DNA of 64,000 nucleotides from contig NZ_KB235911.1 in NCBI RefSeq assembly GCF_000332175.1, forward strand, positions 1-64,000. The letters are read 5' to 3'. Under the pieces are notes generated by a model, which saw nothing but the letters and a program-made list of their open reading frames with translations, ran no database searches and was not told where the DNA came from. The translations under genes and the position numbers were made by a program. Below, piece after piece: positions 1,259 through 63,785 of the stretch; positions within the stretch are counted from its first letter, which is position 1, and each line of letters starts with the position of its first letter. This DNA is from Pseudanabaena sp. PCC 6802 (GTDB lineage: Bacteria; Cyanobacteriota; Cyanobacteriia; Pseudanabaenales; Pseudanabaenaceae).

Positions 1259-2398
1259 ATGACAACTACGAGCACTAACAGAACGATCGGCAATCCCACC
1301 GCTCCCATCTTGGAACGTTTAGAAGCAGGTGGTGCCTTACTGCCAGACAATCCCCAAAATCTCAAGGAAGTGGTGGGCATCCTCAAGAGTTATGGTGTGG
1401 TTTTAGATGCCTACAATCGCAATCTGATCGCGATCGCCGACCGCCAGTTCCTCAACTTCTTTCCGTTCTTCAAATACTTCAACGACAAGGTAGAGATCGG
1501 TCAACTGCTCAAGCACTGGTGGCACGATCGGATTAATTACGAGTTTGCCGAATATTGCATGAAGGCAATGCTCTGGCACGGCGGCGGCGGCATGGATGCC
1601 TATTTGGATACGCCGGAGTTCAAACAACTGGCTGAGAAAGCGATTCAAGCCAAGTTTAAATGGAATCCGTTGATTATGGGGCTGCACCGCGCTTTCCCAG
1701 AATTCCTGCCAGAGCAGATCCGCCAGATGTGCTACTACAGGGCATTAGGAGTATTCTGGTCAGTGATGGCTCCGATGTTTCTGAATCTCAGCGATCGCTA
1801 CGATCGAGGTGAAATTAAAAATATCCCCGATGTGGTCGCGCACGTCCTCGATGGCTTAGTAGAAGCTGCCAATCTCCCGGTTGACTATACAGTTAATATC
1901 GGCGGTCAGGCTTATGAAATTATGCCCAGATCTGCAGGTCTCACTTTCCTAATGGATACTGCTGTTCCCTATGTCGAAGCCGTCTTTTTCCGCTCGTTCC
2001 CATTCCGAGGCACGGTTTCCTACAACGCTCAAGCATACCAAATCTCCAGCGATCCTGCCGACTTTAACTATGGCGCTCTCTATGCCGATCCGCTACCCGT
2101 AGGTGGCGCTGGCATCCCACCCACATTACTGATGCAGGACATGCGCCACTTTATCCCAGACTATCTGCAAGAGATCTACGATCGCAGTTCGCGTGGCGAA
2201 GCCGACGTGCGGGTGCAAATTTGCGTCTCCTTCCAAAAATCGATGTTTTGCGTTACTACCGCTGCCATTAAGGGCTTAGCACCGCATCCAATGGACACGA
2301 CCGATCCAGAAGAAAAGCAAGCCAACCGCGTCTATTTACAAAAGTGGTTGAAGCGCCTGGAAAAGTCGCGCCTACTAGACGTGCAAACTGACACATAG
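1259..2398 (+). CDS. cupB: CO2 hydration protein CupB (ChpX)
   Basis: Peripheral, carbonic-anhydrase-like subunit of the NDH-1MS' complex, which converts CO2 to bicarbonate at the expense of electron flow. The 379-residue length fits CupB and is shorter than CupA (438 aa, also in this window), which has an extra stretch before the conserved His-rich block. The block KHWWHDRIN (H86, H89, R91) followed by MLWH (H107) aligns with LFHHWWHDRIN (H130, H133, R135) in the window's CupA. In CupA family members the first His and the Arg are the reported metal-site residues; I rely on memory for that. It sits 16 bases after ndhD4 with the purine-rich sequence GAGGACAAAAA before the ATG, so it is the last gene of that operon. 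Confidence 0.93.
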   Translation: MTTTSTNRTIGNPTAPILERLEAGGALLPDNPQNLKEVVGILKSYGVVLDAYNRNLIAIADRQFLNFFPFFKYFNDKVEIGQLLKHWWHDRINYEFAEYCMKAMLWHGGGGMDAYLDTPEFKQLAEKAIQAKFKWNPLIMGLHRAFPEFLPEQIRQMCYYRALGVFWSVMAPMFLNLSDRYDRGEIKNIPDVVAHVLDGLVEAANLPVDYTVNIGGQAYEIMPRSAGLTFLMDTAVPYVEAVFFRSFPFRGTVSYNAQAYQISSDPADFNYGALYADPLPVGGAGIPPTLLMQDMRHFIPDYLQEIYDRSSRGEADVRVQICVSFQKSMFCVTTAAIKGLAPHPMDTTDPEEKQANRVYLQKWLKRLEKSRLLDVQTDT

Positions 2399-2501
2399 TA
2401 CACCAAAACCAAAGTTTTGGAGGGGGGTGGAGGGGGTGAAACCCCCTTCTGGGGGCTTTGCCCCCATTCCCCCATGTTGCAAAATTTATGATTTGCAACA
2501 C
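2399..2501. repeat. Family B palindromic repeat, copy 1
   Basis: It begins at the cupB stop codon. One end is the hairpin CCAAAACcaaAGTTTTGG and the other is GTTGCAAAatttatgATTTGCAAC. Between them lie G-runs that pair with C-runs (GGGGGCtttGCCCCC). A second copy lies at 13436-13537 in the opposite orientation. It probably also works as the transcription end of the ndhD4-cupB operon, which is an inference from its position. Confidence 0.75.
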
Positions 2502-2535
2502 TAGTTTATCGAGTCAGAGGTTTTGAGAAAAACTT

Positions 2536-3248
2536 TTAAAAACTGAGCCAGTTAAAAATCTGCTCAGAAGTTAATTCTAATTCAAGACCATTGAGCACTG
2601 GAATGCGATCGCTTCCTTGGAAAATTTGGATGCGGCGATCGCCAAACACAACTAAAATATTCCGATCTTCAGGATCGAGCAACCAACCCAACTCCGTGCC
2701 ATTTTCGATGCAATGTAATAAATTTGCTAAGACCTTATAGCGTTTTTCAATTGAGAACAGGTTTTATTGACGGGGTGAAGGGGTTCCACACGGCAGTGGC
2801 TCTAGCGGGGAACCCCCAAGACCGCCCTGCCTCCCCTTCTTGGGGGCAACGCCCCCAAACCCCCTTCTCGTTTTCATCTGAAAACCGCTATATTTTGTCT
2901 TTGTTCGTGAGAGAGAATTTCAATCGCCCAGTCAGGATGAGTCTCAAAACGGTTCGCAACTTCACCTAAGTCATTACACGGGATTCTACCCCAACGAAAT
3001 ACAGACAGATCGGGAACGATAGAAGCTCCAGCAAAATTACAGCGCAACTCTGGAAAAGCGATCGCGAGCTTGGCAGGTCGCGTAGATTGGTTAATAGTTT
3101 CGCAAAGCGTACCTTGTAATAAGCTATGTTTTCCTTGCGGCATAGCTTTTTGAGTAATTTTCTCGTTGAGAAATTCGGAGGCAGGCTTAGTCTCAGGCAG
3201 ATTGAGAAATGCTTCTAAGCTAATCGGCTTTGTTGATGTGGTTACCAT
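2536..3248 (-). pseudogene. Uma2-family endonuclease gene split by a miniature element
   Basis: The N-terminal half starts at 3248 and reads a typical Uma2/DUF820 protein (ETKPASEF, MPQGKHS, VPDLSVFRW, DWAIEILS) until residue 118, where it runs into the repeat at 2736-2892 and stops soon after. The C-terminal half resumes beyond the repeat with KVLANLLHCIENGTELGWLL and ends at 2536. Removing the repeat and one of the two flanking TA dinucleotides rejoins the halves in frame as EQRQN-KVLANLL, giving about 185 residues, the usual family length. Uma2 proteins have a PD-(D/E)XK-like fold and are abundant in cyanobacteria; their role is poorly known. The split copy is presumably inactive. Confidence 0.88.
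2736..2892 (-). repeat. Family A MITE, copy 1 (long form, 157 bp)
   Basis: The ends are TATAGCGTTTTTCAATTGAG and its near-inverse CTGAAAACCGCTATA, flanked by a duplicated TA. It carries an extra ~45-bp module (CGGCAGTGGCTCTAGCGGGG and following) that the standard 113-bp copies lack and that is present twice in the copy at 53356. It interrupts a Uma2 gene. Confidence 0.92.
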
Positions 3249-3369
3249 TATTTCACGGTTGTTTCAGAAATTAAAGGTTGCAAATTAATGAATGTGCCCT
3301 CACAGAAACCTACATGATTAGTAGATTTTACAACGCTTACAAACGTCTTTGACTTTACAACCGGAACCC

Positions 3370-3482
3370 TATAGCGTTTTTCAATTGAGAACAGGTTTTA
3401 TTGCCGGGGTGAAGGGGTAGAACCCCTTCTTGGGGGCAACGCCCCCAAACCCCCTACTCTTTCCGATCTGAAAACCGCTATA
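3370..3482 (-). repeat. Family A MITE, copy 2, with an adjacent solo end
   Basis: Standard 113-bp copy with TATAGCG...CGCTATA ends and internal hairpins GGGGGCaacGCCCCC and AGGGGtagaACCCCT. A solo right-end fragment (ATTGAAAAACGCTATA) lies at 3505-3520, suggesting decay of a neighbouring copy. This stretch (3249-3606) between the Uma2 remnant and the exporter gene holds no gene that I can support. Confidence 0.9.
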
Positions 3483-3606
3483 GAGCAGGCATCGATTCAA
3501 TGACATTGAAAAACGCTATACGATCGATCGAGTAATCACTGAGAGATTTCAAGAATTAGCTTTTTACATATTAATTCCAGATAATGTTGCTTTATCTGTA
3601 TTTAGG

Positions 3607-5769
3607 TTATGGACGCAGAAAATCCAGGTGGTTCCCCGGTTTACTGTGCAGATCGTGGAGAGTTCCTTCCAAAACTAGCTCGCCGCGATCTAGCACTACA
3701 AGCCAATCCGCTCGATTAATTACTCTGGGACGGTGACTGATTAGAACTGTTGTCTTACCCCTGCGATGTAACAATAATCGATCGAGTACTTGGGCTTCGC
3801 TGGCAGGATCGAGACCAGCAGTCGATTCATCCAAAATCAGTATGGGTGGATCGCTAACAATCGCTCTAGCGATCGCCAGCCGCTGCCGCTGCCCGCCGGA
3901 TATGTTGGCACCGAACTCACCGAGTACCGTTTGATATTTATCCGGTAGATTGCTGATAAAATCATCAGCTTCAGCAATCTGACAAGCTTTCACAATCTGC
4001 TCGAAAGTCGCGTGCGGAGCACCTAAACGGAAATTTTCTAGAATAGAACGGCTCCAAAAATGAGGTTCTTGTGGGATTAGAACTACCTGTTGGCGAAGGC
4101 AATCGAGGGCGATATCTTGCAGGTTATAGATACCAATGCGAATGTTGCCAGATTGAAGATCGTACAGGCTGGCAATTAATTTCGCCAAACTGCTTTTCCC
4201 ACAGCCAGATCTTCCAATCAAAGCGGTAATCTTACCACCTGGAATAGTTAAAGAAAAATCTGTCAGCAAGTTCACTCTACCAGCATAGTGATAATTAAGT
4301 CGCGTACAAGCGATATCTGCATCGCTAGGAATAGCAACCCAGGGTTTGGGAGCGCGGCCTTGGGTTTCGGGGGTAGAATCAATCACTTCAGCAAGACGCT
4401 GGACTGCAGTATTGGCGCGAATAAAATCACTAACAAAGCGAACGACGACATTGAGGAATACGAGGAAGTTTGCATTCATCGTGTTGAATGCCAGTAGCTG
4501 ACCGATGCTGAGTTCCTGACTAATTACCAAGTGGCTGCCAAACCAGAGCAAAATCACATTGCCCACTCCTGCCACAAAAATGGAGAACGTGCGATTGATA
4601 ATACCAATTTGAATTGTTTTAAAAGTGACATTGGCTAAGCGTCCGAATCGACTTTGAAATTCCTCCCAAAATTGTGGGGCGGCACTTGTGGTTTTGACGG
4701 TAAGCGCCCCCTTAAACGTCTCCACCAAAACACCTTGATTCTCTGCTTCTATTACCAATAACCTGCGGATGCGATGGCGCAACACGGGCATCAAAACAAT
4801 CGTCGATATCGTCATAAATGCCGCGATCGCTAGCGCCACAGCCACTAATTTCCCACTGTAGTACAGCATTAAGCCTAGAGATATGACAGCAACAAACAAT
4901 TGGCTGGGTAAACTCACCACCACCTGGGAAACTAGCTGGTTAATTTCTTCAATATCTCGCAAACGACTGACTATTTCTCCACTGCGATGGGATTCGTAGT
5001 ATGAGAGTGGCAAGCGTAAAATTTTTCGCCCAAACTCCAGGATTAGTCCCAGTTCCAGCCGCTGGGCAAAGTGGGCAATTAGATTAAATTGCACGAGCTG
5101 CAAGCTACTACTCATGAGTTGCATTACCCCTACAGCCGCGACAATTCCCACTAGCAATTGACGATCGCCCCGTACCAATACATCATCAGTGAGGATTTGA
5201 ATTAAAAATGGCAAGGCAAGCGAGAGTAAGCCCAGTATGAGATTAATCAGTAAAGCTTCGCCCAAGATAGAACGATAACTCCAGACAGGATTGAGAAATC
5301 GCCAAAAGCTAGCGATCGCATCGTCCTCTTTCTCTGTAAAGCGGATTGGATCTGGCTCTAATAAGAGCGTTACGCCATGCGTCCAACCTGCTAACAGTTC
5401 TTTTCTAGACAGATAGAGAATCCCAACTGCTGGATCGGCAATGACGTAGTTTTGCCCTCGCTGCCCGTAGAAAACTACATAGTGATTGCCTTGCCAGTGA
5501 ATAATTGCTGGTAGAGGCAGTTCCTTCATCCGATCCAGGATCTGTGGGTCTGCTTTAACGCCTCTGGAGTTGAACCCCAGTGTCTCTGATCCTTGAATCA
5601 ACCCTAGCAGTGTAGTACCTAGTTGCCCAGTACCAACGGCTTCGCGGATATGACTGATGCTAAAGTTACGTCCATAATATTTGGATATTGTTGCCAAACA
5701 AGCAGCACCGCAATCTTCTTCACTATGCTGTAGGACGTTCTGGTATTTCATTCTCAATATTTTTCCCAT
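3607..5769 (-). CDS. C39-peptidase-containing bacteriocin-type ABC exporter
   Basis: Dedicated exporter that cleaves a double-glycine leader and pumps the core peptide out of the cytoplasm. The N-terminal C39 papain-like protease shows the catalytic Cys in EEDCGAACL, the His in HWQGNHYVVF and the Asp in VIADPAVG. About six membrane helices follow, then a nucleotide-binding domain with Walker A (GRSGCGKSS), signature (SGGQRQRL), Walker B (ILILDEST) and H-loop (LISHRP). At about 720 aa this is the full PCAT architecture. I chose the ATG at 5769; a TTG 14 codons upstream lies inside a hairpin, and an ATG at 5751 is also possible. A matching substrate gene lies 163 bases upstream on the same strand, and an HlyD adaptor lies nearby. 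PteB of Synechococcus elongatus, which exports small double-glycine biofilm proteins, is the closest described cyanobacterial analogue that I know of. Confidence 0.93.
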   Translation of the reverse strand: MGKILRMKYQNVLQHSEEDCGAACLATISKYYGRNFSISHIREAVGTGQLGTTLLGLIQGSETLGFNSRGVKADPQILDRMKELPLPAIIHWQGNHYVVFYGQRGQNYVIADPAVGILYLSRKELLAGWTHGVTLLLEPDPIRFTEKEDDAIASFWRFLNPVWSYRSILGEALLINLILGLLSLALPFLIQILTDDVLVRGDRQLLVGIVAAVGVMQLMSSSLQLVQFNLIAHFAQRLELGLILEFGRKILRLPLSYYESHRSGEIVSRLRDIEEINQLVSQVVVSLPSQLFVAVISLGLMLYYSGKLVAVALAIAAFMTISTIVLMPVLRHRIRRLLVIEAENQGVLVETFKGALTVKTTSAAPQFWEEFQSRFGRLANVTFKTIQIGIINRTFSIFVAGVGNVILLWFGSHLVISQELSIGQLLAFNTMNANFLVFLNVVVRFVSDFIRANTAVQRLAEVIDSTPETQGRAPKPWVAIPSDADIACTRLNYHYAGRVNLLTDFSLTIPGGKITALIGRSGCGKSSLAKLIASLYDLQSGNIRIGIYNLQDIALDCLRQQVVLIPQEPHFWSRSILENFRLGAPHATFEQIVKACQIAEADDFISNLPDKYQTVLGEFGANISGGQRQRLAIARAIVSDPPILILDESTAGLDPASEAQVLDRLLLHRRGKTTVLISHRPRVINRADWLVVLDRGELVLEGTLHDLHSKPGNHLDFLRP

Positions 5770-12468: not shown

Positions 12469-12738
12469 CTACAAACTTTTTGCATATTCGTGCCAGTAAG
12501 CCGCAGTCTCAGAAGTCTGCTTCAAAACCACATCTGGAAGTAAGTCTGCTGGCCAAAAAGCAAGATATAGCGTTTTTCAATTGAGAACAGGTTTTATTGA
12601 CGGGGTGAAGGGGTAGAACCCCTTCTTGGGGGCAACGCCCCCAAACCCCCTACTCTTTCCGATCTGAAAACCGCTATAATAGAAATCTACAGGTTCTTCT
12701 TCCTCAAGAATAGTATCGACTTCTTTGCCGCGATCCAT
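12469..12738 (-). pseudogene. Small gene split by a MITE (52 codons when rejoined)
   Basis: From the ATG at 12738 the frame reads MDRGKEVDTILEEEEPVDFY and then enters a family A element. Beyond the element the frame resumes with YLAFWPADLLPDVVLKQTSE and ends at 12469. Deleting the element plus one flanking TA restores a single frame (VDFY-YLAFWPAD). I do not recognise the protein: it is short, acidic at the N-terminus, and aromatic in the middle. The start could be slightly upstream, overlapping the end of the next gene. Confidence 0.6.
12566..12678 (-). repeat. Family A MITE, copy 3
   Basis: Standard 113-bp copy with TATAGCG/CGCTATA ends, almost the same sequence as the copy at 3370. It splits a small reading frame, with a TA duplication visible on both sides. 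Confidence 0.92.
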
Positions 12739-13582: not shown

Positions 13583-13993
13583 TTATGCATTGCTTTGATG
13601 TTTCAGAGAAGGTACTAAATGCATCATAAAGTCACGCTTACCTATTGGTGCTCCTGCCATACGCAGGATATTGTACGCCGTTGTTATATGGAAATAAAAG
13701 TTTGGCATCAGAAAATCATCTACATACGAAAGTCCAGATAATTCTGCATATAGCCCTTGTCCAAGATCGAGCCGATTGAGTTCTGACAGTTTAGAATCAG
13801 TAATATTAATACTTGCCAACAACTCCTTAGTCGATGAAATATGACCACGCGCCTCATCTAGAGATGCTACATCGGGGTTCAAGTTATTCGCCGACTGTCC
13901 TAAGCACCACAATGCGAAATTGCGAGGCTGATTGCAAGTAAATGCGATTTGTGTGCCGAAAGGAAACATATCGGGCGCTATAGCAGTTTTCAC
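13583..13993 (-). pseudogene. DUF1993 protein, N-terminus lost to a MITE
   Basis: The body matches DUF1993: APDMFPFGTQIAFTCNQPRN near the start, then TKELLASI, FYFHITTAYNILRMAGAPIGKRDFM. Full-length members carry about 40-45 further residues before the (L)APDMF motif. Here those codons are replaced by the end of a family A element, which supplies the only possible start (MKTAI). Beyond the element the sequence contains an in-frame stop and no clear N-terminus. Either the gene is dead or a shortened protein is made from within the element. Confidence 0.72.
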
Positions 13994-14091
13994 TTGAGAA
14001 CGGGTTTTATTTTTGGGGTGAAGGGGTGGAACCCCTTCTTGGGGGCGTTGCCCCCAAACCCCCTACTCTTTCCGATCTGAAAACCGCTATA
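13979..14091 (-). repeat. Family A MITE, copy 4
   Basis: 113-bp copy with TATAGCAGTTTTCACTTGAG at one end and CTGAAAACCGCTATA at the other. It abuts and truncates the DUF1993 gene. Confidence 0.9.
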
Positions 14092-18862: not shown

Positions 18863-18975
18863 TATAGCGGTTTTCAGATCGGAAAGAGTAGGGGGTTTGG
18901 GGGCGTTGCCCCCAAGAAGGGGTTCTACCCCTTCACCCCGGCAATAAAACCTGTTCTCAATTGAAAAACGCTATA
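18863..18975 (+). repeat. Family A MITE, copy 5
   Basis: 113-bp copy in forward orientation (TATAGCGGTTTTCAGATCGG first). It lies between the secreted protein gene and cupS in a stretch (18754-19045) with no other content that I can support. Confidence 0.92.
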
Positions 18976-25080: not shown

Positions 25081-25193
25081 TATAGCGGTTTTCAGATCGG
25101 AAAGAGCAGGGGGTTTGGGGGCGTTGCCCCCAGGTCGGGGTTCCACCCCTTCACCCCGTCAATAAAACCCGTTCTCAAGTGAAAACCGCTATA
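25081..25193 (+). repeat. Family A MITE, copy 6
   Basis: 113-bp forward-orientation copy (TATAGCGGTTTTCAGATCGG...GAAAACCGCTATA). It accounts for most of the gap between the terminator and the MFS gene (24970-25297). Confidence 0.92.
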
Positions 25194-29869: not shown

Positions 29870-29983
29870 TATAGCGCTTTTCAGATCGGAACGATAAGGG
29901 GGGGTTGGGGGCTGCGCCCCCAAGAAGGGGTGAAACCCCTTCACCCCATAAATAAAACCTGTTCTCAATTGAAAACCGCTATA
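29870..29983 (+). repeat. Family A MITE, copy 7, inside the group II intron
   Basis: 114-bp forward copy. The sister intron at 32.6 kb has the same flanking sequence without the element: CTCCCCAGATAAGAACGTGA, against CTCCCCAGATA[element]TAAGAACGTGA here. The insertion therefore duplicated a TA. Confidence 0.93.
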
Positions 29984-32221: not shown

Positions 32222-32938
32222 AATACAAGCCCGTCTAATCGGGTAACCAGGGGATTTTCTCCCCCAGTCCCCACAGCACCCCGCGTGCGGCTCCGCACGG
32301 GGCGCTTCCCCAGAAAGGTTTAGATATTTAGGCTCAAAAGAACCGATATCCAAGGCTGGTTGTGCAATTAAGCGCCGACAATATGGCTCCCCCGGTCGGG
32401 TTCATCACCAAGTCGAGCTTTGCAACTCCTCCTTGCTTGCCAAGGTTCAGCCCTTCACCGTGTCTCACCCATTACGATGAGCGTTTGGCTACTATAGCAT
32501 CTGCTGACTTCTGCCCAATCATGAGTAACGTTGCCGCAACTCACGCGGTCTGAGTTGTCTTAGGGTTCTGTGGCTACCTAGCCGTTTCCAGCTAGACCTC
32601 AATCAGACTCCCTTAGCTTCAAAGACCGCCGTTTGAGCAGATCTCCCCAGATAAGAACGTGAACTGTCCCTGCACAACCGCGTCATTTACTGTGTTCCCC
32701 GAACCAAAAGGCTTTGTGATGTTGTGCTCACTCGCCACGGGAATTTCAGCCTTCTATGACGTTTCTGTCCGTCAGCTCGCAGGTTTGCCGCTGGCTTCCT
32801 TCAGACCTTTCCTCGCGGAAACGCCCTTGCCTTTGGCTAGGAGTTTTCGTCACTCGGCTCCAAAATTTACGAGCATTTGGACGTTGGTTCTCCTCCAGGG
32901 GACTTTCACCCCATTAGTTCACGCCCATGCTGTTCCTA
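32222..32938 (-). mobile_element. ORF-less group II intron remnant
   Basis: Its 5' half (read on the minus strand) parallels the intact intron at 28216-30270 nearly base for base (CATGGGCGTGAACTAATGGG, AGTGACGA- and GTGAGTTGGC-like segments), and a domain V-like hairpin plus CCCGATTAG closes the 3' end. The maturase is gone; only a short stretch around its start (CCCCCGGTCGGGTTCATC on the plus strand) remains. The first ~10 bases of the 5' end are altered. It serves as the empty site for the MITE inserted in the intact copy. The remaining DNA from 32158 to 33008 holds no gene. Confidence 0.78.
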
Positions 32939-35997: not shown

Positions 35998-37128
35998 TTG
36001 CTCCGGCAATGAAAAAGAAAGCATAGGATAATAGAAGTAAAGGCACAAGGAGGTTTGACATGGATAAACCAGATGGCCGACACCTATCGATAGAAACGCA
36101 AAATTACCTTCGACAGCAAGCGATCCGGTTGCGAGAACAAGGGAAACGAGTATGTGATATTAGTGAGTACCTGGGGATTCATCGTAACACGATTACGGAG
36201 TGGTGGTGGGCGTATCAAGATTACGGAGAAGCAGCCCTGTTTCAGCAGCGACGAGGACGAGAGGTAGGGGAAGGGCGCAGTTTAAGTGCCTCAGAGGAAA
36301 CAACGATTGAAGCAATGCTGCGGGGACACAGCCCGGAGGAATACCAGATCGAGAGCGCCTTGTGGACTAGACAAGCCGTGCAAATACTAATCGAGCAAGA
36401 ATTAGGAGTGGAGATGCCGATACGCACAGTGGGGGAATATCTCAAACGATGGGGCTACAGCCCCCAGAAGCCGATCGAACGTGCCTATGAGCAAGACCCC
36501 GCTGCCGTGAAACACTGGTTACAGGAAGAATATCCCGCGATTGAGCAACGGGCACAAGCAGAAGGTGCCGAAATCGAGTGGGGAGATGAATCGGGACTCA
36601 GTTCTGATGAGTATGGAGGGCGAGGTTATGCACCCAAGGGACATCCCCCTGAAATTCGTCCTAGTAAACGCGAGCGGACACGGTTGAATTTCATTGCTAG
36701 CATCAGTAATCAAGGCACGATTCAATTTATGCTTTACACCTGTACCTTGACAGCCCCAGTATTTATTGAATTTCTGCAACGGTTGATTGACAAGCGTTCA
36801 AGCAAACTGTTTTGGATCGTGGATCGCCATCCCGTCCATCGAGAGCGCCCCGTGCAGCAATGGTTAGAACAGCACTCCCAGGAGATCGAGTTATTTTATT
36901 TGCCTTCCTATGCGCCGCAGTTGAATCCAGTAGAGTATTTCAATGGTGATGTGAAACAGGGAGTTCACGCCAAACCTCTGACGCGAAACCTGGGTCAATT
37001 AAAACATAGATTGCTATCTCAACTGCAGAAATTGCAGAGATTGCCTGCCCACATTAGGAGTTACTTTAAGCATCCATCTATTATTTATGCTGCTCTATAG
37101 ATTGCATTCTATTTTATTGCCAAGGCAA
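35998..37128 (+). mobile_element. IS630-family insertion sequence
   Basis: The ends TTGCTCCGGCAATGA (left) and TTGCCTTGGCAATAA (right, inverted) are flanked by TA on both sides, the Tc1/mariner/IS630 target duplication. It contains one intact transposase and is nested in an IS5-like transposase gene. About 1.13 kb. Confidence 0.9.
36060..37100 (+). CDS. IS630-family transposase
   Basis: 346-residue transposase. The N-terminal helix-turn-helix is at QAIRLREQGKRVCDISEYLG and a second HTH region at RTVGEYLKRWGYSPQKP. The DDE core has the first Asp in EWGDESGL, the second in KLFWIVDRHPVH, and the Glu in LPSYAPQLNPVEYFNGDVK. Intact, with AAGGAGG close before the ATG. It could mobilise the 93-bp MITE at 31654, which has the same ends. 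Confidence 0.95.
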   Translation: MDKPDGRHLSIETQNYLRQQAIRLREQGKRVCDISEYLGIHRNTITEWWWAYQDYGEAALFQQRRGREVGEGRSLSASEETTIEAMLRGHSPEEYQIESALWTRQAVQILIEQELGVEMPIRTVGEYLKRWGYSPQKPIERAYEQDPAAVKHWLQEEYPAIEQRAQAEGAEIEWGDESGLSSDEYGGRGYAPKGHPPEIRPSKRERTRLNFIASISNQGTIQFMLYTCTLTAPVFIEFLQRLIDKRSSKLFWIVDRHPVHRERPVQQWLEQHSQEIELFYLPSYAPQLNPVEYFNGDVKQGVHAKPLTRNLGQLKHRLLSQLQKLQRLPAHIRSYFKHPSIIYAAL

Positions 37129-53355: not shown

Positions 53356-53559
53356 TATAGAGGTTTTCAGATGAAAACGAGAAGGGGGTTTGGGGGCGTT
53401 GCCCCCAAGAAGGTGAGGCAGGGCGGTCTTGGGGGTTCCCCGCTAGAGCCACTGCCGTGTGAAACCCCTTCACCCTTGGGGGTTCCCCGCTAGAGCCACT
53501 GCCGTGTGAAACCCCTTCACCCCACTAATAAACCCTGTTCTCAATTGAAAAACGCTATA
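53356..53559 (+). repeat. Family A MITE, copy 9 (204 bp, with duplicated internal module)
   Basis: The ends TATAGAGG and CGCTATA are as usual, but the interior holds two tandem copies of a module with GGTTCCCCGCTAGAGCCACT and CCGTGTGAAACCCCTTCACC. The 157-bp copy at 2736 has one such module in inverse orientation. This explains most of the 411-bp gap before the TPR gene (53215-53625), where no gene was found. Confidence 0.85.
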
Positions 53560-63672: not shown

Positions 63673-63785
63673 TATAGCAGTTTTCACTTGAGAACGGGTT
63701 TTATTTTTGGGGTGAAGGGGTTCCACCCCTTCTTGGGGGCAACGCCCCCAAACCCCCTACTCTTTCCGATCTGAAAACCGCTATA
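63673..63785 (-). repeat. Family A MITE, copy 10
   Basis: 113-bp copy with TATAGCAGTTTTCACTTGAG and CTGAAAACCGCTATA ends, between the TPR gene and the J-domain gene. Confidence 0.92.

Follow-up and report, generated by a model that had tools for sequence, protein, structure and literature searches.

A TA-flanked 153-bp element with IS630-type ends splits a Uma2-family gene in Pseudanabaena sp. PCC 6802

The direct precedent for the elements described here is RUP of Streptococcus pneumoniae, an element of about 107 bp that is present in about 110 copies, has ends like those of IS630-Spn1 in the same genome, uses a TA-containing target and occasionally disrupts genes, including a restriction endonuclease gene (PMC3049150, PMC2229807). 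The principle of an IS630-driven MITE is thus already known. As characterized in the cited parts of these reports, RUP resembles our elements in size, IS630-like ends, TA target and gene disruption, the likeness being one of description and not of end sequence; RUP is AT-rich, whereas our elements have a GC-rich hairpin core, and the hosts differ. In cyanobacteria, ISY100 (ISTcSa) of Synechocystis sp. PCC 6803, an IS630/Tc1/mariner element with 24-bp inverted repeats, duplicates TA; its purified transposase alone cuts and inserts, and mini-elements with 30 bp of each end were as good as the full element in vitro (PMC2170065). On the portion of that report cited, ISY100 and the candidate partner insertion sequence (IS) found here are both cyanobacterial, IS630-type and TA-targeting, again by description and not by end sequence; ISY100 is an autonomous element whose transposase is encoded by one gene, whereas the transposase of the partner lies in two frames around an A9 run. 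In Anabaena sp. 90, 147 MITEs have been described, of which 15 lie in disrupted ORFs (PMC3542288); no partner IS was recognised for them, whereas a likely one was found here. For Nezha, another MITE of cyanobacteria, mobilisation by ISNpu3-like elements has been proposed (PMC3049150); as that account presents it, Nezha resembles our elements, by description and not by sequence, as a cyanobacterial MITE with a proposed IS mover. Among open-licence papers, no description of the present MITE family in Pseudanabaena was found.

The window, that is, the whole stretch of 64,000 nucleotides that was analysed, contains on its minus strand a Uma2-family gene interrupted by a 153-bp element (Table 1). 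Joining the flanks of the gene with one TA gave a protein of 185 aa with its stop at 2538-2536, whereas joining them without TA shifted the frame (140 aa) and joining them with two TAs led to a stop at 122 aa. The insertion adds 155 bases, and the frame of the interrupted allele terminates at 124 aa, the Uma2 sequence ending after residue 119 and the frame stop lying five residues downstream of the join. The joined protein matched Pfam PF05685 over residues 11-174, nearly its whole length (E 2.2e-24), while the match of the truncated protein covered residues 11-118 only. TA was duplicated on insertion into the Uma2 gene, and the original gene can be recovered by taking the element out. These results agree with the position and strand given for the split gene in the earlier note and with its claim that removal of the element with one TA restores the frame; the length of 157 bp claimed there holds for the span with both flanking TAs, the element itself being strictly 153 bp.

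Table 1. Positions in the window of the split gene, the inserted element and further paired family ends
Feature	Position	Strand	Remark
Split Uma2-family gene	2536..3248	-	5' part 3248-2893, 3' part 2735-2536; one-TA join, Pfam PF05685
153-bp element (putative MITE)	2738..2890		Same sequence as the subfamily consensus (36 sampled copies)
TA target duplication, copy 1	2736..2737		From sequence, joins and flank survey
TA target duplication, copy 2	2891..2892		From sequence, joins and flank survey
Element end including TA	2736..2760	+	22/25 bases match IS630 terminal inverted repeat
Opposite element end including TA	2868..2892	-	22/25 bases match IS630 terminal inverted repeat
Family member, 109-bp form	3372..3480		TA on both sides; outside the Uma2 frame
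Family member, 109 bp	12568..12676		TA on both sides
Family member, 109 bp	13981..14089		TA on both sides
Family member, 109 bp	18865..18973		TA on both sides
Family member, 109 bp	25083..25191		TA on both sides
Family member, 110 bp	29872..29981		TA on both sides; element-free paralogous sequence at 32560-32803
Family member, 109 bp	46870..46978		AA, not TA, on one side
Pair of family ends, 200 bp	53358..53557		TA on both sides
Family member, 109 bp	63675..63783		TA on both sides

The joined Uma2 protein was searched in its own genome, in 38 genomes of the family, of which 37 gave a match, and in genomes of named species (42 loci). The resulting alignment comprised 78 loci, namely seven own-genome paralogues (L034, L036-L040 and L042) and L097-L167, all of which covered residues 112-128; eight weak own-genome matches (L043-L050) were left out. 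The element was absent from all 78 aligned loci, and 77 of them were gapless across the insertion point, the single gapped homologue (L144) having an 8-residue insertion unrelated to the element. TA was present at the exact insertion point in 19/78 homologues. The closest homologue, L097 (74% amino-acid identity), reads AAC AAG without TA, and the second closest, L098, reads AAT AAG GTC, the same as here. Because these 19 homologues and L098 carry TA at the exact point, the ancestral Uma2 site was most likely a single TA, as judged from homologues at no more than 74% amino-acid identity and not from same-species alleles.

The element is one of many in this 5.62-Mb genome. The window contains 10 occurrences of TATAGCGG, where 1.4 would be expected, and matches to the element end numbered 663 genome-wide against 9 for a reversed control pattern. 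With the 157-bp span as query, at least 39 full-length copies of 94-100% identity were found among the 40 scored of 486 candidates, and four copies that are identical over the 157 bp stand at unrelated sites. Flanks were surveyed in 464 kb, consisting of the window and twenty 20-kb stretches spread over the genome. Paired elements numbered 27, mostly of 109 bp (15) and 153 bp (6), and the window was enriched, with 10 in its 64 kb and 17 in the other 400 kb. TA, which the search pattern omitted, stands on both sides of 26 of these 27, the remaining one having AA in place of TA on one side; TA makes up 5.6% of the dinucleotides in the 464 kb surveyed, and from position -3 outward the base composition of the flanks is flat (random). 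Unique elements from the sampled own-genome loci likewise have TA on both sides (72 of 78). Sampled copies of the long form (36) average 94.7% identity and those of the short form (33) 86.2%.

Like a MITE, the 153-bp element is short, has no transposase gene, ends in terminal inverted repeats (TATAGCG.../...CGCTATA) and occurs in many copies at unrelated sites. No full-length match was found in 57 relatives, and plasmid records gave no match to the element; an Rfam scan of window positions 2000-4000 gave nothing at the gathering score. Its GC-rich hairpin core (2833-2868) has short matches in five of the 57 relatives, cyanobacteria of the family and the class (G011, G012, G040, G049 and G051).

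Empty sites were also screened with 122 TA-flanked elements from the sampled loci of all genomes, whose one-TA joins were compared with every locus, and 14 candidates were obtained. Seven of these, with elements of 26-48 bp, were dropped because the element had aligned to itself. The pair L317/L322 was not counted, having an 11-base gap near the join, nor was the 110-bp window element, whose element-free paralogue about 2.6 kb away (79% identical) shows a one-base length difference at the join; L224 and L233, with nearly the same flanks in genomes G026 and G030, were counted as one site. In the genome studied here, the 109-bp element at C1:194938-195046 has two element-free paralogous copies, which align with it over 256-267 bases at about 73% identity and show no gap at the join. 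In G026, another Pseudanabaenaceae genome, two elements have the same ends as this family. The 101-bp element at C1:458504 lies inside a multi-copy palindromic repeat, other copies of which have no element and mostly align without a gap at the join, with small gaps near it in some of the copies compared; at C1:357496, the one-TA join has the length of the other repeat copies and restores the palindrome, and the empty repeat copies are without the TA itself. Empty sites thus reveal the target duplication at Uma2 and C1:194938-195046 here and at two places in G026, in all cases through homologues or paralogues and not through a sister allele. Between G026 and G030 (about 99.5% identical), no indel of at least 8 bases in the compared collinear stretches was an element, giving no filled/empty pair, and no clean empty orthologous site for the G026 elements was found in other Pseudanabaena genomes, the matches there ending at the elements.

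Among 16 IS630-type (DDE_3) matches in the genome, one has identical 25-base ends. This 1,022-bp element (C5:1425188-1426209; L082:1006-2027) is bounded by perfect, identical 25-bp repeats TATAGCGGTTTTCAGATGAGAACAG that begin with TATA, and it is flanked by TA at either end and carries terminal inverted repeats, as IS630-family elements do. The Uma2 element shares its ends with this full-length IS630 of the same genome, as a MITE does (Table 1). The putative transposase is encoded in two frames, one for the N-terminal DNA-binding region and one for the DDE region, and a -1 slip on the A9 run would fuse the two into a protein of 324 aa. Its match to Pfam DDE_3 (E 3.2e-33) is that of an IS630-type DDE transposase; against NCBIfam NF033545, the C-terminal frame scored 124.6 bits (cut-off 100) and the N-terminal frame alone 67.1 bits, below the cut-off. 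The element is the single complete copy in this genome. A second, partial copy stands at the start of contig C5 (C5:1-2000, L333), the contig beginning inside it; since its flank equals that of the complete copy for 258 bases and is similar further on, the partial copy belongs to a duplicated segment and does not represent an insertion of its own. A relative of 67% identity in genome G023 has seven copies there, with similar ends and also an A9 run.

We read the Uma2 element as a non-autonomous MITE of the IS630 (Tc1/mariner) type that was probably moved in trans by the same-genome IS630 or a past relative and inserted at a TA of the Uma2 gene, and on sequence comparison we put the probability of this reading at about 95%. 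The transposase of the full-length IS630, or that of an earlier relative sharing its ends, would recognise the ends of the MITE, excise it and insert it at the TA, and gap repair would then duplicate the TA. The 1,022-bp IS630 with matching ends is most likely the mover, its putative transposase presumably serving as the source for these MITEs; their chemistry would be cut-and-paste, and by analogy with ISY100 the IS630 transposase may move them in trans. The earlier note had regarded the TATAGCGG palindromes as mobile, with TA as target, and as MITEs of the Tc1/mariner/IS630 type. Mobility, as far as sequences can tell it, is borne out by the uninterrupted Uma2 homologues and the empty paralogous sites; the choice of TA by the flanks of 26 of the 27 elements and the TA at the exact site in 19 of the 78 homologues; and the type by the full IS630 with matching ends in the same genome. 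This would link a concrete IS630 element to a small repeat that ranks among the most abundant of the genome, with readable examples of insertion in which the original site is recoverable. It would also provide a clean natural setting in which to ask how hundreds of MITEs can be maintained by one or two copies of a transposon.

The mover may instead have been another TA-targeting transposase, such as that of a more numerous second IS630 type (357-aa transposase), which has many near-identical copies in the genome and, at three loci, a TATAGCG-type end. We consider this very unlikely, because these ends continue CAGCATAAATAAT and not NTTTTCA, because ten loci of that type (L084-L093) lack any TATAGCG, and because it is the 1,022-bp IS630 with which each MITE end agrees in 22 of 25 bases. 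A different objection concerns transposition itself: the 153-bp segment might have arisen by recombination or slippage, the TAs being part of a longer inverted repeat. The element does have a strong propensity to fold (DNA fold z -4.4), and, given ends of the form TATA...TATA, the sequence by itself cannot tell which TA belongs to it. Such an origin is nevertheless scarcely probable in view of the four identical 157-bp copies at unrelated places, the nearly constant TA with random bases beyond it, and empty sites that are equal in length when one TA is kept. Finally, the 155 added bases, the frame stop five residues after the join and the absence of the element from every one of the 78 Uma2 homologues make it hardly credible at all that the element is a functional part of the gene, an in-frame or regulatory insertion kept by selection; all that was found in favour of this idea is that an insertion of the common 109-bp form, lengthening the sequence by 111 bases (37 codons), could stay in frame elsewhere.

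With insertion of an IS630-type MITE as the preferred reading, the event in the Uma2 gene looks recent, since this copy is identical to the consensus of the 36 sampled long-form copies and the gene is otherwise open; the insertion would have abolished Uma2 function. Gene splitting by these elements is rare in our sample. In a frame test on a population of 69 elements, frames of at least 400 bases were seen in 6, 11 and 10 cases for joins with 0, 1 and 2 TA, respectively, and the one-TA joins thus gave no clear excess of open frames among the 69, where longer frames were expected. This flat outcome fits mostly intergenic insertion and adds no support. When eight joined frames of at least 90 aa were inspected, Uma2 was the only convincing gene split among the sampled elements; the joined frames at L043 and L172 were rejected, as they seem only to extend upstream of the likely gene start.

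Of 38 genomes of the family, 26 contain exact copies of the end TATAGCGGTTTTCA, which is most frequent in this one (332), followed by G026 (122) and G030 (117). Between such ends lie interiors of 153, 109 or about 101 bp, and bare double ends of 26 or 42 bp also occur; one of the interiors is the GC-rich hairpin, which is present in distant cyanobacteria as well. It is a tentative and rather unlikely idea that the TATAGCGGTTTTCA IS630 ends have been fitted with several interiors across Pseudanabaenaceae as exchangeable terminator or insulator modules and that the 26-bp double ends are still mobile.

Four 30-bp palindromes in this genome (G000 C1:261916-261945, C5:97622-97651, C5:230616-230645 and, on C5, L168:12228-12257) consist of two element ends back to back, with the same centre (one with two base changes) and different flanks. 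They could have come about by deletion between two TTTTCA stretches of an element. In G030, identical 46-bp double-end palindromes stand at two different sites (C4:32586-32631 and C41:32397-32442).

Near-identical copies of the second IS630 type, with its 357-aa transposase, were seen in the window (36576-37001) and at L081, L083-L086 and L088-L095, those at L094 and L095 carrying a further insert of about 1.35 kb. The copy at L083 (G000 C5) contains an 89-bp insert with 10-bp direct repeats CAATTAAAAC (L083:1931-2019), which is absent from copy L085 at that point and represents another small mobile element with an empty site.
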